From: a bacterium
GTDB lineage: Bacteria > B130-G9
Reading direction: 5' to 3'
NCBI GenBank assembly: GCA_021160245.1
Contig: JAGHCW010000212.1
Span: forward strand, 1-8,798
DNA: 8,798 nt
A program made the translations under genes and the position numbers. Shown here in pieces: positions 2,590 through 8,798 of the stretch; within the stretch, counting starts at the first letter, position 1; every line of letters begins with the position of its first letter. The notes beneath the pieces are model-generated. The model was not told the origin of the DNA and ran no database searches. It saw only the letters and a program-made list of their open reading frames with translations.

Positions 2590-3299
2590 TCAGGTCGCTT
2601 GGGACCGCAGCGCATAAACCGACACGGAATTGCCCATAAAACTGCTTCTTTTGGCAACGAGCGAAGGCTTAAGTCCCGTTTCAATGAACTCCGTGAACTC
2701 GAACATCGAGGGCGAGACCACATCGGACACAGTTACCTGAACGCGGCCCGCCGGTGTCAAGTGCCGCATAACTCCTGCCCAAAAGCCTCTGATGACCTCG
2801 CCGGTTTTGCCGCCCATGAAGGCCCGTTGCCTTAGATTCTTGGGATCGCTGAAGAAGAAGGGCGGGTTGAAAACAATCATGTCAAACTTCTCGTCTGGAC
2901 CGATGTTCTCGAAGAGATTGCTGAGTCGGGACTCGATTCTGGCATCCACGCCGTTGACAATTGCGTTAATTCTTGAGCACCGGACGGCCATTGGGTTGAC
3001 GTCGCAGGCAAGGACACGAACGCCTCTGGCCGCTGCACGACCGCTTGAATCCCTGAACCGGTTCCCATGTCCAGGACTGAAGCGGCGCCATCAAGCGCAA
3101 GGTTATCAGCCAGAAACTCTCCGGACCAGTGCATTACGGGATCGAATACTGTGGGAAGAATAATGAGAGATTTGTCACGGTAAGAGACTGAACGGATAGA
3201 CCTCCCCTTAAAGCCAGACAAGAAACTCGCGCACGATGCAGCGCACAAGCCCCTCAGTCTCAAAGCGAGTCCCTCAAATGAACTACCATTGACCGGCAT
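2590..3299 (-). pseudogene. Small SAM-dependent methyltransferase (HemK/RlmG-like), frameshifted
   Basis: This encodes a Rossmann-fold methyltransferase of the small-MTase type, whose relatives methylate rRNA bases or release-factor glutamine. The N-terminal frame (from 3299) contains the SAM-binding motif VLDMGTGSGIQAVV. The reading then moves to another frame, which continues ARGVRVLACDVNPMAV and later has motif IV IVFNPPFFFSD and a normal C-terminus ending at the TGA at 2590. The frames join near 3036-3041; adding one base restores AVV-AAARGVRV, so a 1-base deletion explains the break. Restored, the protein would be about 236 residues. The ATG at 3299 has GGGG five bases upstream; an in-frame TTG at 3359 is possible but has no ribosome site. 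The C-terminal piece alone (2590-2991) lacks the SAM loop. This could be a real pseudogene or a sequencing or assembly error; substrate is unknown. Confidence 0.8.
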
Positions 3300-3379
3300 A
3301 TTTACCCCATGATAAGGCCAGGCGACATATACCTTCGCCCTTAGAAGAGTAGTTGTCAAGCAAAACGAGGCAAGAACTC

Positions 3380-4051: not shown

Positions 4052-4081
4052 TTGACAGCATCTCTCTGTGCGCCCTATTCT
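4052..4081 (+). promoter_or_regulatory. Strong sigma70-type promoter of the aminotransferase-like operon
   Basis: TTGACA (4052-4057) is a perfect -35 hexamer. TATTCT (4076-4081) matches the -10 consensus at 4 of 6 positions with an 18-base spacer. Transcription would start near 4088-4090, directly at the ATG at 4091, predicting a leaderless message. This agrees with the absence of any Shine-Dalgarno sequence before that ATG. The in-frame TTG at 4052 that could be read as a start codon is then simply part of the -35 box. Confidence 0.55.
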
Positions 4082-4090
4082 GCGGCTGTC

Positions 4091-5323
4091 ATGGAAATTG
4101 AATCCAGTAAAGAGAGCACACCGCTGGTTGAGCGCGGTCAAGGGTGCTCATTCATCGACGCTTCGGGCCGAGAGATACTCAATCTTTCCGCATCGGCATT
4201 TTGCCTGCCCTTAGGTTACGGCAACAATCTCGTCAAGTCGGCTGCCTTGGAGACGTTAGATGCGAATCTGCTTGGTCTTCCGGGGGCTAATCTCGATCTT
4301 CGCTTGTGCGATCGACTAATGAGAACTCTCTCGGATTTCGAGCTCTTTTTCTATGCGAGGCGCGCTCTTTTATTCCAGACCGGACGCCAAGCCTTTCGTG
4401 GCGCGATTAAGATAGCGACAGAGCACACTTGCCGCAGCCGAGTAATGATGCTCTGTGGCGGCTGCCACGGCCGGAGTCTAGGCCAGATCAGCTGGGGCGA
4501 TGGCCCGGTGGGATGCGCAGCTCAAACATCGCCGGCCCCGGACGCCATATACTTGCCTTTCCCGGGCGCCTCAGGCTCCAGAATACGCGGGACATCCGAT
4601 TTTGTGGTCTATCTTCACGATTTTGTCTTCAAGCACATCGCTCATCCAAGTGAGATTGCCGCTCTGGTTGTCCCACCAATACAATTCAGCGAGTCGCTCA
4701 CTATCATTCCGGATGATTTCTTCACGGTCGTTCACGGCCTGTGCCAGCGAACCGGCATCGTGCTTATTGTTGATGAAACGAACCTTTCATTGGGGGTCCT
4801 GGGCAGTCGATTCGCGTGTGAGCAGTGGGATTTTCAGCCGGACATTCTCTGCTTGGGAGAGGGATTCGCCAACGGACTCTGCTTTGGGGCGGCGATCACG
4901 CTCAAGTCGTTTCTTGACTTCGATCTCAGTGCGCTTGATGGACATTCTCAATGTCAGGCTCTCTCCGCCGCCGCTGCAATCGCAATGCTCAAACGTGGTG
5001 ACGCCAAGCTAGCGACAAGCGCGGCCAAGATCGAGGCATTTTTGAAGGCGGGCCTTGAGAGGTTGGGTAACTCATGTGGTTTGATTACGGATATTGCCGG
5101 GAAGGGCGCCCTTTGGACCATCTCGCTTGAGCATCGCGCCTCAAGTGACCCCGAATGGCTTTTGCTTCGCGATGAGGTGGCTGCCAGAGCGTATTCGCAA
5201 GGCCTTTATGTGGCCAAGACTGGCACTCACTCGCTAATAATCGCCCCACCGCTTGTGATTTCCGACTCTGCTTTGGAGCGAGGATTGCATATTATTGGCG
5301 AGGTGCTGGCACACATTGAGTAG
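4091..5323 (+). CDS. Class-III aminotransferase-fold protein lacking the PLP lysine
   Basis: A 410-residue protein with the fold-type-I, class-III (acetylornithine/GABA aminotransferase-like) layout. Recognisable landmarks, numbered from this ATG: an N-terminal GQGCSFIDASGREILNLSA strand (16-34), HGR (126-128), LIVDETN with the pyridine-binding Asp228, the FACEQWDFQPDIL stretch, GFANGLCFGAAI (258-269), and an Ala-rich helix after DGHSQCQALSAAAAIAML. At the position of the Schiff-base lysine (family LAKGLGGG) the protein has LGEGFANG, so the residue is Glu257 (GAG, 4859-4861). The SGxEA loop is TGRQA and the EPxxGEGG segment is PPIQFSES. It is therefore unlikely to be an ordinary transaminase; it may be a pseudoenzyme, a binding protein, or a PLP-independent activity. 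I chose the ATG over the in-frame TTG at 4052 because the latter overlaps the promoter. It is the first gene of a probable operon with the next one. Confidence 0.85.
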   Translation: MEIESSKESTPLVERGQGCSFIDASGREILNLSASAFCLPLGYGNNLVKSAALETLDANLLGLPGANLDLRLCDRLMRTLSDFELFFYARRALLFQTGRQAFRGAIKIATEHTCRSRVMMLCGGCHGRSLGQISWGDGPVGCAAQTSPAPDAIYLPFPGASGSRIRGTSDFVVYLHDFVFKHIAHPSEIAALVVPPIQFSESLTIIPDDFFTVVHGLCQRTGIVLIVDETNLSLGVLGSRFACEQWDFQPDILCLGEGFANGLCFGAAITLKSFLDFDLSALDGHSQCQALSAAAAIAMLKRGDAKLATSAAKIEAFLKAGLERLGNSCGLITDIAGKGALWTISLEHRASSDPEWLLLRDEVAARAYSQGLYVAKTGTHSLIIAPPLVISDSALERGLHIIGEVLAHIE

Positions 5324-5368
5324 CATCTCTTTGGGTGTGCAGTAAGTGGGCAAGTGAGAATCCCTACC

Positions 5369-6433
5369 ATGACGGCTCTGGACTCGGCTATTGACGTTCT
5401 GTTTGATGAGATTCTGGGCCTTAGGGCACATGACAGGCTACTCATTCTCATCGATGAGAGTAGTTCGTCCGCTCTCTCGGGCGCGATAGCTGATAGGGCG
5501 CGCAAGGCAAAGGTTGATGTTGAGCTTGGCCGCCTAAGAAGCAGTGAGAGCTTCTATATTGAGCCAGACAGGGCAATCGCAAAAGCGATGCGAGCATCAA
5601 GCGTCATCCTCGAGCTATCGTCCTCTTGTTCGCTCTACTACAGCACTATCTTGAAAAGGGTCGTTCGAGCCGGCGCCAGGGCGTTTTTTCTGACGGGGCT
5701 TGGACCTTCAGAGCTTCAGCATTTGATAGGCTCCGCAAATCACTCCGAACTGCACGCTCTGGGGGATCGGCTTCTGCTTATGTTACGCCGCTCAAGATAC
5801 GTTGAGATATTCTCCGGACGCGGATGTGCCCTGGGCCTTTCGCTTGGCCCCGCATGGGCAAGGGAGTTCCTTCACTTTCGATTCTTGAGGCGCCACCTAA
5901 ATGCTTTCTTCGACCAGCCTACAGGGCTTTGCCGGAAGGTTGCGGCATTCTCATCGCTCGGAGGACAGGTTTCATTCAGCGGAATTAGGTCAAGTATAAA
6001 CGGAAGCTTGCTTATTGACGGCGCCTCATTTCCACCGCAAGAGGACTGTCCCTTAACTGCGCCTTTCAAGATAGACGTGAGGCGCGGCCGCGCGGTCAAG
6101 ATAGAGCGGACGTCAGCGGGGCAGAGATTCGCCGAATGGCTTGCAGACAATGGGATGGACGGCGCGAGAGAGGTCATGCACATCTCTCTTGGGCTCAATC
6201 CCTTGGCGTCTCTGGGGCCGACGATGCTCGTGAATGAGAGAATTCTGGGGGCAGTTACGATGGGTCTAGGTTACGGCGCAAGAAAGGCCCATCGTGACCT
6301 TATTGCGAAATCGCCTTCTGTGTGGGTTGATGGGCTTCCGCTTTTCGAGGACGGGCGCCTCGTTCATTCGGGGATCCTGCATTTCCCGAAAGCTCTCGTT
6401 CGGAGGGGGATGTCGGGGCGAAATACGCGCTGA
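5369..6433 (+). CDS. Aminopeptidase M29 / NicX-like protein with altered metal site
   Basis: A 354-residue protein related to the M29 thermophilic aminopeptidases and the 2,5-dihydroxypyridine dioxygenase NicX group, which share a fold binding one or two metals. Best evidence is the C-terminal part: GLNPLASLGPTMLVNERILGAV, then HRD (His308, Asp310), then PSVWVDGLPLFEDGRLV, which aligns without gaps to the family pattern GTNPxA...HxDG...PTVWVDG..xEDGxL. Other expected ligands differ: family GEV is GQV (Gln200), family GEFGIG is MHISLG (His271), and family GTVH is GAVT (Thr297). Only the HxD pair is retained, so normal hydrolase chemistry is doubtful. The start could also be GTG at 5354 (five residues longer); neither has a good ribosome site. 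It lies 45 bases after the aminotransferase-like gene, same strand, so probably cotranscribed. Its last 44 codons overlap the convergent membrane gene. Confidence 0.8.
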   Translation: MTALDSAIDVLFDEILGLRAHDRLLILIDESSSSALSGAIADRARKAKVDVELGRLRSSESFYIEPDRAIAKAMRASSVILELSSSCSLYYSTILKRVVRAGARAFFLTGLGPSELQHLIGSANHSELHALGDRLLLMLRRSRYVEIFSGRGCALGLSLGPAWAREFLHFRFLRRHLNAFFDQPTGLCRKVAAFSSLGGQVSFSGIRSSINGSLLIDGASFPPQEDCPLTAPFKIDVRRGRAVKIERTSAGQRFAEWLADNGMDGAREVMHISLGLNPLASLGPTMLVNERILGAVTMGLGYGARKAHRDLIAKSPSVWVDGLPLFEDGRLVHSGILHFPKALVRRGMSGRNTR

Positions 6434-7730
6434 AGAGCAGAATGAGTAGCGGGGCGTACATATAGGGCCAGATAATCGGCGAGAGCATCAAGAAGGCCAA
6501 CATCGACAGGCCCATGAGGCATAGAAGGGACCGCACCCCGCGCAGTTTGATTGCGGCGAAGGCTATCAGAAGCACTTGCAGCAGGGCGATTATCGGCTTC
6601 AATAGGCCCTGCAATCCGTATTCAAAGAAGAGAGGAACAAATGAGAGTGAATGCTCCCAGGCTCTTTCATTTACCCACTTCTCGACCGAAAAGGCGTCAA
6701 AGCGCGAATAGACGCCGAAGAGAAAGTCGGATGGCGAGTGCATGAAGAATGGCAAGCACAAGAGCACCGGGACCGCCACAGAAAGCAATGCGTTCGTCAT
6801 AAATCGAATCTGCCGTCGTCTTCTGAAGAGAAAGATCAGGTAGAAGGGCAGTAAAATGACAGCTTGCTGCCTCGCGGCGAGGCAAAGTCCCATCGCGGTC
6901 GATGCCATGATTAGTTTCTGCCTCGTGAGGCATAGAATGAAGATGGCCAGCGTGACCCAGAATACGGATTCTGGCGTTATCGTGCTGAAGCGAAGGGCGG
7001 TTCCAGAAAAAAGCAGCATCGCAATAAGAAGGCTGCGCGCGCCATTCGCCGGCTGTGAGGAGGATGTTGGGAACGCACGCCAGATAACAAGTATCGCCGT
7101 CACGCTGAGCGTCGCGCCCATCCACCTCAGGTCCACGCCCAATAAGTAGGCCGGCAGAAAACTGAGCCACGACGCCGGCAGGTATGTTAGCGGCAGAGGC
7201 CAAGGCATGAAGTATTGGGAGTAGGGATCTTGTCCCGATATGAATCGCTTGCAGGCCATGAAGACCAGCGGAAGCATGTCGCTCTTGGTGGGATTTATGC
7301 TTCCTGCAGCCCAGATGGGTGCGCGCGAAAGAAAGGAGACCGCGGCAAGAACTGTAACGAAAAGTAGATTTGACTTGAAACTGAACCAGCAGACGCCGGC
7401 GTAAAATAGCAGGATGAGGGCCTTAGTAACCATCGAGAAGCCTGTTGATAGGCCGGGGAATCCGGGGGCAAAGGCGAGCGCGAGGATAACGAACAAACAG
7501 GTCCCGACGCGGAAAAGAATCGCCTGTCGATCCGCTATCCGCGCCTCGCTGGCACATTTGCTATAGAGGCTTAATGCGAATGCGAGCGAGCAACAGGCCG
7601 CGAATACGAGAGATAGACCCAGCATTGTATAAGGTCCGATAAGCTCTCGATATGCCCCGAAGAAGTGGAGAGCAAGAATCGCGAGAATCGTGAATGAAAG
7701 CCTTGAATAAGAATGAGAAACGGGCAACAT
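6300..7730 (-). CDS. Polytopic membrane glycosyltransferase-like protein (GT-C / DUF2029-like)
   Basis: A 476-residue integral membrane protein with roughly ten to twelve hydrophobic segments (e.g. 11-25, 36-54, 77-93, 101-117, 121-135, 184-198, 205-218, 233-245, 256-268, 287-302, 313-330, 379-394, 402-436). GT-C enzymes use polyprenyl-phosphate sugars on the outer membrane face. Suggestive motifs are GQDPYSQYFMPWPLPLTYLP (166-185), a typical lumenal loop with DPY and PLTYLP, and CLAARQQAVILLPFYL (283-298), like the K/RQQ-LLPF segment of DUF2029/GT87 proteins. The basic FRRRRQIR (302-309) fits a cytoplasmic loop. The ATG is preceded by GAGGATTT, a good ribosome site. The hydrophilic tail from about 439 to 476 is encoded opposite the end of the M29-like gene. 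Neighbouring GT2 suggests envelope glycan synthesis; donor and acceptor are unknown. Confidence 0.75.
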   Translation of the reverse strand: MLPVSHSYSRLSFTILAILALHFFGAYRELIGPYTMLGLSLVFAACCSLAFALSLYSKCASEARIADRQAILFRVGTCLFVILALAFAPGFPGLSTGFSMVTKALILLFYAGVCWFSFKSNLLFVTVLAAVSFLSRAPIWAAGSINPTKSDMLPLVFMACKRFISGQDPYSQYFMPWPLPLTYLPASWLSFLPAYLLGVDLRWMGATLSVTAILVIWRAFPTSSSQPANGARSLLIAMLLFSGTALRFSTITPESVFWVTLAIFILCLTRQKLIMASTAMGLCLAARQQAVILLPFYLIFLFRRRRQIRFMTNALLSVAVPVLLCLPFFMHSPSDFLFGVYSRFDAFSVEKWVNERAWEHSLSFVPLFFEYGLQGLLKPIIALLQVLLIAFAAIKLRGVRSLLCLMGLSMLAFLMLSPIIWPYMYAPLLILLFSAYFAPTSPSERELSGNAGSPNERGARPRKAEAHQPTQKAISQ

Positions 7731-7806: not shown

Positions 7807-7847
7807 GTTAAAGGCTAGTCGTTTAGCAACTGATGGTGGGCCTGTGC

Positions 7848-8798
7848 ATGCCTCGTGTGTCGGTAATAATCCCCAACTGGAACGGGAAAGAGCTCTTAAG
7901 GCGGTGCCTCTTGAGCCTTGCAGAGCAACAATTCGCTGACTTTGAAACTGTCGTAGTTGACAACGGCTCGAGCGATGGTTCGCTTCAAATGATGAGGTCC
8001 CAATTCCCGAATGTTCGCATTATCGCGCTTGAGCGCAATTTTGGCTTTAGTGTGGCCGTCAACGCCGGGATTTGTAGTTCCGATTCTGAATACGTTGCAC
8101 TTTTGAACAACGACACTGAGGTAGGTCCGGATTGGCTATCAAGTCTCGTCTGCGCCCTTGACGCGAATCCCAGGGCTGGCTCCGCTGCCTCAAAGATACT
8201 CTGGGACAACGCGAGGGACACGATTTATGCGGCGGGCGATTTCTTCTGCCGGGAGGGGTTCGGGGGTAATATGGGCTCCGGTATGCCCGATGGCCCGGCT
8301 TTCAATAGCCCCGGCTGGGTTTTTGCCGCATCCGCTTGCGCCTGTCTCTATCGACGTCGGGTATTGGATGAGATCGGGCTTTTGGACGAGAGTTTCTTCA
8401 TTTTCTTTGAGGATATTGATCTCGGCTTTAGAGCGCAGCTCGCGGGCTGGGAGTGCATCTATGTCCCCGACGCGGTCGTCTATCATACTGGGACGGCAAC
8501 GGTTGGGATCTTCAGTAAGAGGCGGAAGTTCCTTCTTTCACGAAATGAGCTCTTCGTGCTCGCAAAAACTCTGCCTGGTAGCATCCTTCGGAAGAACGCG
8601 AAGGCCATTCTGCGTCATCAGCTTGAGGCGTCAACTCGGTCGATCGACGAGGGCAGTCCGGCAACGCTTCTGCGCGCTCGATGTGCGGCCGTTGCTGCCA
8701 TTCCCAACCTTCTTGGGTCGAGGCGCCGGATAGGAACCACCCGTCGCGCGTCAATAGAGTACATTGAGAGTTTCATCCGACCCCACGCGGAGTTTTAC
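7848..8798 (+). CDS. Family 2 glycosyltransferase, rhamnosyltransferase-like (3' part outside window)
   Basis: The first 317 residues of a GT-A-fold inverting glycosyltransferase of the WbbL-like rhamnosyltransferase group, cytoplasmic or membrane-associated, adding a sugar from a nucleotide donor to a glycan intermediate. Motifs: VSVIIPNWNG (4-13), VVVDNGSSDGS (35-45), the NFGFSVAVNAGI segment (64-75), LLNNDTEV (85-92) in the metal/nucleotide DxD position, and FFEDIDLGFR (186-195) with the catalytic acidic residues, followed by VYHTGTAT (211-218). The ATG at 7848 has GGTGGG seven bases upstream; an in-frame ATG at 7833 would add five residues but the family normally starts right at VSVIIP. 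No stop occurs before the right edge. It is divergent from the membrane GT-C-like gene, and the two probably belong to one polysaccharide locus. The exact sugar is not determinable. Confidence 0.93.
   Translation, partial: MPRVSVIIPNWNGKELLRRCLLSLAEQQFADFETVVVDNGSSDGSLQMMRSQFPNVRIIALERNFGFSVAVNAGICSSDSEYVALLNNDTEVGPDWLSSLVCALDANPRAGSAASKILWDNARDTIYAAGDFFCREGFGGNMGSGMPDGPAFNSPGWVFAASACACLYRRRVLDEIGLLDESFFIFFEDIDLGFRAQLAGWECIYVPDAVVYHTGTATVGIFSKRRKFLLSRNELFVLAKTLPGSILRKNAKAILRHQLEASTRSIDEGSPATLLRARCAAVAAIPNLLGSRRRIGTTRRASIEYIESFIRPHAEFY

Follow-up and report, generated by a model that had tools for sequence, protein, structure and literature searches.

A conserved gene pair in Candidatus Coatesbacteria: a class-III aminotransferase homologue without the PLP lysine beside an H-type, NicX-like protein

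Do two adjacent genes whose products resemble enzymes with altered active sites form a unit, and has each of the products given up the chemistry of its family? The question is raised by a locus within a window of 8,798 nucleotides, the whole stretch of DNA that we analysed, which is an entire 8.8-kb contig of a metagenome-assembled genome from the uncultured phylum Candidatus Coatesbacteria. We compared the locus across a set of four Coatesbacteria genomes (that of the window, G001, G002 and G003). The genes with which this analysis is concerned are as follows:

4091..5323, plus strand: gene 1, a class-III aminotransferase homologue without the PLP lysine (PF00202, 7.6e-45; 48% identical to its G001 orthologue)
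5369..6433, plus strand: gene 2, a putative H-type metalloprotein of the M29/NicX fold (profile match to NicX, PDB 7cn3; alternative GTG start at 5354)
6300..7730, minus strand: a GT-C-like membrane protein, convergent to gene 2 (neighbour kept in 4/4 genomes)
7833..8798, plus strand: a GT2 glycosyltransferase that runs off the contig (PF00535, 1.5e-28; neighbour kept in 4/4 genomes)

Genes 1 and 2 are complete, of full length and on the same strand, and the originally noted spacing of 45 bases between two full-length frames holds for the distance from the gene 1 stop codon (5321-5323) to the gene 2 ATG at 5369 (30 bases to the upstream GTG). The open frame of gene 1 reaches up to a TTG at 4052; the likely start is the ATG at 4091, which agrees with the start in G001. 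The 3' end of gene 2 runs into that of the convergent GT-C gene, with 134 shared bases in the window (6300-6433), and an overlap of about 39-134 bases is present in 4/4 Coatesbacteria genomes. Elsewhere in the window, a HemK2-like methyltransferase gene (2590-3359, minus strand) is split over two frames near 2990-3010, a split that stems from misassembly or marks the gene as a pseudogene.

The homology of gene 1 to class-III aminotransferases spans about 400 residues; the match to PF00202 covers residues 24-418, and the comparison with the class-III aminotransferase of PDB 7vno gives 1.3e-48. Two sites located by alignment are of particular importance:

4859..4861, plus strand: codon for Glu270, at the position of the catalytic PLP lysine (Lys in 34/34 other class-III homologues)
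4772..4777, plus strand: codons for Asp241-Glu242, a retained class-III motif

The original prediction that gene 1 specifies an aminotransferase-like protein devoid of the PLP lysine was borne out, in that Glu occupies this column in the gene 1 copies of both the window and G001, which belong to different genera; the 34 homologues with Lys include lysine-aminotransferase-like paralogues from all four Coatesbacteria genomes. The loss extends well beyond the lysine. In particular, of 54 columns that are each at least 90% conserved among the class-III homologues, 23 are kept by both copies of gene 1 and 25 are lost in both, whereas the homologues themselves retain a median of 98% and a minimum of 72%. 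Among the lost columns are those aligned with Glu208, Glu213, Gln244, Arg396 and the PLP-phosphate residue Thr298, a cross-subunit Thr that is replaced by His or Pro in the two copies. The aromatic, ring-stacking residue that precedes the HGR motif is missing from both copies, the aligned substrate Arg is gone, and the PLP phosphate loop is unlike that of class III and also differs between the copies (TGRQA versus SSDHA). Both copies have Asp241, corresponding to the Asp that in fold-type I PLP enzymes pairs with the pyridine N1 of the cofactor, and gene 1 also keeps H139-G140-R141 (the HGR motif) and many structural glycines. Because the lysine and most other PLP and substrate residues have been lost, it is very probable that the gene 1 product does not act as a PLP transaminase; its residue pattern, read from two sequences, fits a protein that has retained the fold and given up the cofactor. 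We found no precedent in the literature for a class-III aminotransferase pseudoenzyme. Single-chain AlphaFold models of both products were of low quality (pLDDT 39 for gene 1 and 48 for gene 2).

Single-sequence searches of Pfam, NCBIfam and the PDB with gene 2 returned no match. A profile built from gene 2 and its distant relatives, by contrast, matched NicX best (1.3e-19) and M29 peptidases weakly, confirming the superfamily first proposed for it, and when a profile was restricted to the H-type branch to which gene 2 belongs, leaving out E-type members, NicX was the sole match in the PDB. Consistent with these findings, hhalign assigned gene 2 to the NicX family with 97.4% probability and to the H-type family with 99.5%, at 18% identity to NicX across the profile alignment. 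NicX is a 2,5-dihydroxypyridine 5,6-dioxygenase (PDB 7cn3) whose iron ligands His265, Ser302, His318 and Asp320 have each been demonstrated by mutation, Ser302 being required for iron (PMC7910607). With the NicX numbering verified residue by residue, the alignment places the relevant codons of gene 2, all on the plus strand, as follows:

5966..5968, plus strand: Gln205, in place of the first M29-type Glu ligand
6179..6181, plus strand: His276, aligned with the NicX iron ligand His265
6257..6265, plus strand: Thr302, where the M29-type His ligand is lost, and Gly304, at the position of NicX Ser302
6290..6298, plus strand: His313-x-Asp315, aligned with the NicX iron ligands His318 and Asp320

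Set against M29-type relatives, gene 2 therefore carries Gln for Glu at 205, His for Glu at 276 and Thr for His at 302, and retains only the H-x-D motif. It was from this perspective that the metal site had been described as disrupted, a description that we rejected after the alignment with NicX: three of the four NicX iron ligands have aligned counterparts in gene 2 (H276, H313 and D315), none of which varies across 4/4 Coatesbacteria genomes. The superfamily as a whole splits in two, nearly all members of one class having Glu, Glu, His, His and Asp and those of the other having the counterpart of His276 together with H-x-D. A maximum-likelihood tree of 41 rows separates the His class, to which NicX and gene 2 both belong, from the other sequences by a branch supported at 98/96, and this split was recovered in 99% of bootstrap trees. 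Given this position in the tree, the change of M29 ligands in gene 2 came down with a lineage that has working enzymes among its members, and it does not indicate decay. The idea of a parallel loss in two linked enzymes is thus not supported: as judged from sequence, gene 2 looks like a member of the NicX-like H-type lineage, with an alternative triad common to many proteins, which leaves gene 1 as the sole apparent pseudoenzyme of the two. Metal binding by gene 2 is nevertheless not assured, because Ser302, needed for iron in NicX, is replaced by Gly304, and this Gly is found in 4/4 Coatesbacteria genomes.

The order and adjacency of the two genes recur in a second Coatesbacteria genus, represented by G001, in which gene 1 and gene 2 are 48% and 51% identical to those of the window and are separated by 18 bases. 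Gene 2 is found in 4/4 Coatesbacteria genomes, and gene 1 lies beside it in both of the genomes whose contigs permit the comparison; the contigs of G002 and G003 end inside gene 2, and gene 1 was not found elsewhere in these two genomes. Two scans of a public genome collection revealed no relative of gene 1 and, as relatives of gene 2, only sequences of Candidatus Coatesbacteria (JAFGIT010000265.1, from G002, and QMNL01000149.1, from G003); scans of viral sequences gave no match. In two heavily overlapping samples of about 386 genomes each, no relative of gene 1 scored above about 194 bits, as compared with about 860 for the true pair. The co-occurrence on which the original prediction hinged is thus present in two genera, and the glycan genes that it mentioned are indeed glycosyltransferase genes near the pair, themselves conserved. 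We infer that the pair is a conserved two-gene unit of Candidatus Coatesbacteria with a joint function; the proposed partnership of the products is drawn from their adjacency in two genera.

The purifying selection that had been anticipated for such a unit was also observed. Gene 2 has a dN/dS of 0.175 over 156 codons (G001-G003, within one genus, dS 0.62), a value to which the 3' part that overlaps the convergent gene contributes a constraint of its own, and the same-genus comparators give 0.235 (GT-C gene), 0.22 (GT2) and 0.10 (lysine aminotransferase). Between genera the dN/dS of gene 1 is about 0.18, which is indicative only because dS (2.6) is near saturation.

We tentatively prefer, with somewhat less than even confidence, a reading in which the two genes constitute a unit whose gene 2 product is a metalloenzyme for an O2-independent step and whose gene 1 product is its PLP-free partner. 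In this mechanism the gene 2 protein, from the H-type branch of the M29 superfamily, would hold a single divalent metal through H276, H313 and D315, and the metal would drive an O2-independent hydrolysis, or cleavage of a ring or C-N bond, in a small molecule. The fold of gene 1, being without the lysine, the phosphate loop, the ring-stacking residue and the substrate arginine, would no longer work with PLP and would instead serve gene 2 by acting as a scaffold, by activating it or by binding the amino substrate. A more specific form of this proposal, an anaerobic, O2-independent enzyme with the His2Asp site of NicX that works only when bound to a PLP-free aminotransferase fold, the latter binding or activating the substrate, we consider rather unlikely.

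Several other explanations were weighed against the preferred two-gene unit. That both genes are decaying remnants might be suggested by the several catalytic residues lost from gene 1; however, the frames are open in every genome with a complete gene, full-length copies occur in two genera, the metal triad is identical in four genomes, and dN/dS of about 0.18 lies near the 0.22-0.24 of the neighbours. Decay of the pair was rejected on these dN/dS values, and we regard it as extremely unlikely. A more serious contender, if still a doubtful one, holds that the two products act independently, that of gene 1 as a pseudoenzyme or binding protein and that of gene 2 as a metalloenzyme, and that the genes remain neighbours only through a general conservation of gene order around the glycosyltransferase block. 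Conservation covers the entire gene 1-gene 2-GT-C-GT2 block, so that adjacency does not set the pair apart, and relatives of gene 2 elsewhere adjoin other partners, such as E-type paralogues and ABC transporters. Weighing the other way, the two genes lie on one strand, 18-45 bases apart, in two genera that have diverged, and gene 1 is where the conserved block ends, since the genes upstream of it are not conserved in the Coatesbacteria comparison.

The remaining alternatives assign a working chemistry to one of the two proteins. Gene 1 might be a functional PMP enzyme with Glu270 standing in for Lys as the acid/base, in the manner of the sugar 3-dehydratases ColD and E1, which have the aminotransferase fold, carry His in place of the catalytic Lys and keep PMP (PMC8987622). 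These precedents, the retention of D241-E242 and the HGR motif, and glycosyltransferase neighbours that fit sugar chemistry all speak for such an activity. Gene 1 is a class-III protein, however, outside the class of the sugar aminotransferases, its phosphate-binding loop differs even between the two copies, and the protein lacks the aligned cross-subunit Thr, the stacking aromatic and the substrate Arg; loss of the phosphate site disfavours a trick of the ColD/E1 kind, which we judge to be distinctly unlikely. Gene 2, for its part, might be a NicX-like, O2-dependent ring-cleaving dioxygenase that gene 1 assists in a catabolic route, as would accord with the match to three of the four iron ligands and with NicX being the only solved structure matched by the H-type profile. 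Against this, the fourth ligand, Ser302, is Gly; the gene 2 column aligned with the substrate residue His189 is not His; the region of the substrate residue Glu177 aligns with no conserved acid and yields no clear counterpart; and catabolic genes are absent among the neighbours. We also detected no COX1 or cytochrome bd oxidase genes in the four Coatesbacteria genomes or in three further genomes that carry H-type genes, in searches whose controls responded and which were made on incomplete metagenome-assembled genomes. Pyruvate:ferredoxin oxidoreductase-type POR, which occurs in aerobes too, is present in all seven. The lack of these oxidases together with the presence of POR suggests that the Coatesbacteria hosts live without oxygen. 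The replacement of Ser302 by Gly, the failure to keep the substrate residues and the absence of COX1 and cytochrome bd make O2-dependent pyridine cleavage by gene 2 unlikely, and the full scheme of dioxygenase plus helper is more improbable still, to the point of being highly unlikely. We found no precedent in the literature for an anaerobic homologue of NicX.

If the preferred two-gene unit is correct, the metal site of NicX, known from O2-dependent pyridine cleavage, would be part of a broader family active also in bacteria without COX1 and cytochrome bd oxidases, and a class-III aminotransferase fold would have been retained as a non-PLP partner. Recognition of the His/Glu split would better annotate many genes, because homologues of NicX are often labelled as peptidases: among plasmid-borne homologues of 49-54% identity, "leucyl aminopeptidase" is a frequent annotation.

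Among the known systems closest to the pair are the H-type proteins of G144, G281 and G210 and of the Variovorax SRS16 and Agrobacterium T29 plasmids, which have His276, H-x-D and Gly304 as gene 2 does, those of G144 and G281 sharing Gln205 as well. They differ in lying beside an E-type paralogue, ABC transporters or degradation genes, with no pseudo-aminotransferase. In G144's relatives the H-type gene adjoins an E-type paralogue in nine genomes, and dipeptide-type ABC transporter genes lie beside the H-type gene at the two loci examined for them (L060, 7032-9068; L061, 7771-9798). The plasmid-borne H-type genes of Variovorax SRS16 and Agrobacterium T29 (L130, 3968-5020; L131, 3971-5008) are annotated as hypothetical and adjoin genes for an aromatic dioxygenase, hydrolases and tripartite transporters. 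NicX itself shares with gene 2 the fold family, the aligned His265, His318 and Asp320 and the His side of the tree, but gene 2 has Gly304 for Ser302, does not keep His189 and lacks a clear counterpart of Glu177, at 18% identity and in a host without COX1 and cytochrome bd oxidases. The M29 metallopeptidases (aminopeptidase T/AmpS/PepS; PF02073) belong to the same superfamily, with weak profile matches and a common H-x-D, whereas their E-type Glu, Glu and His ligand positions are Gln205, His276 and Thr302 in gene 2. The class-III aminotransferases (PF00202; PDB 7vno, GabT) are homologous to gene 1 over about 400 residues and share D241-E242 and HGR; they differ in having the lysine that is Glu270 in gene 1, together with the phosphate loop, cross-subunit Thr, stacking aromatic and substrate Arg that gene 1 has lost. 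By analogy, the nearest precedent for the lysine replacement in gene 1 is that of ColD and E1, in which His is combined with PMP binding in a protein of the sugar-aminotransferase class, whereas gene 1 combines Glu with loss of the phosphate site.
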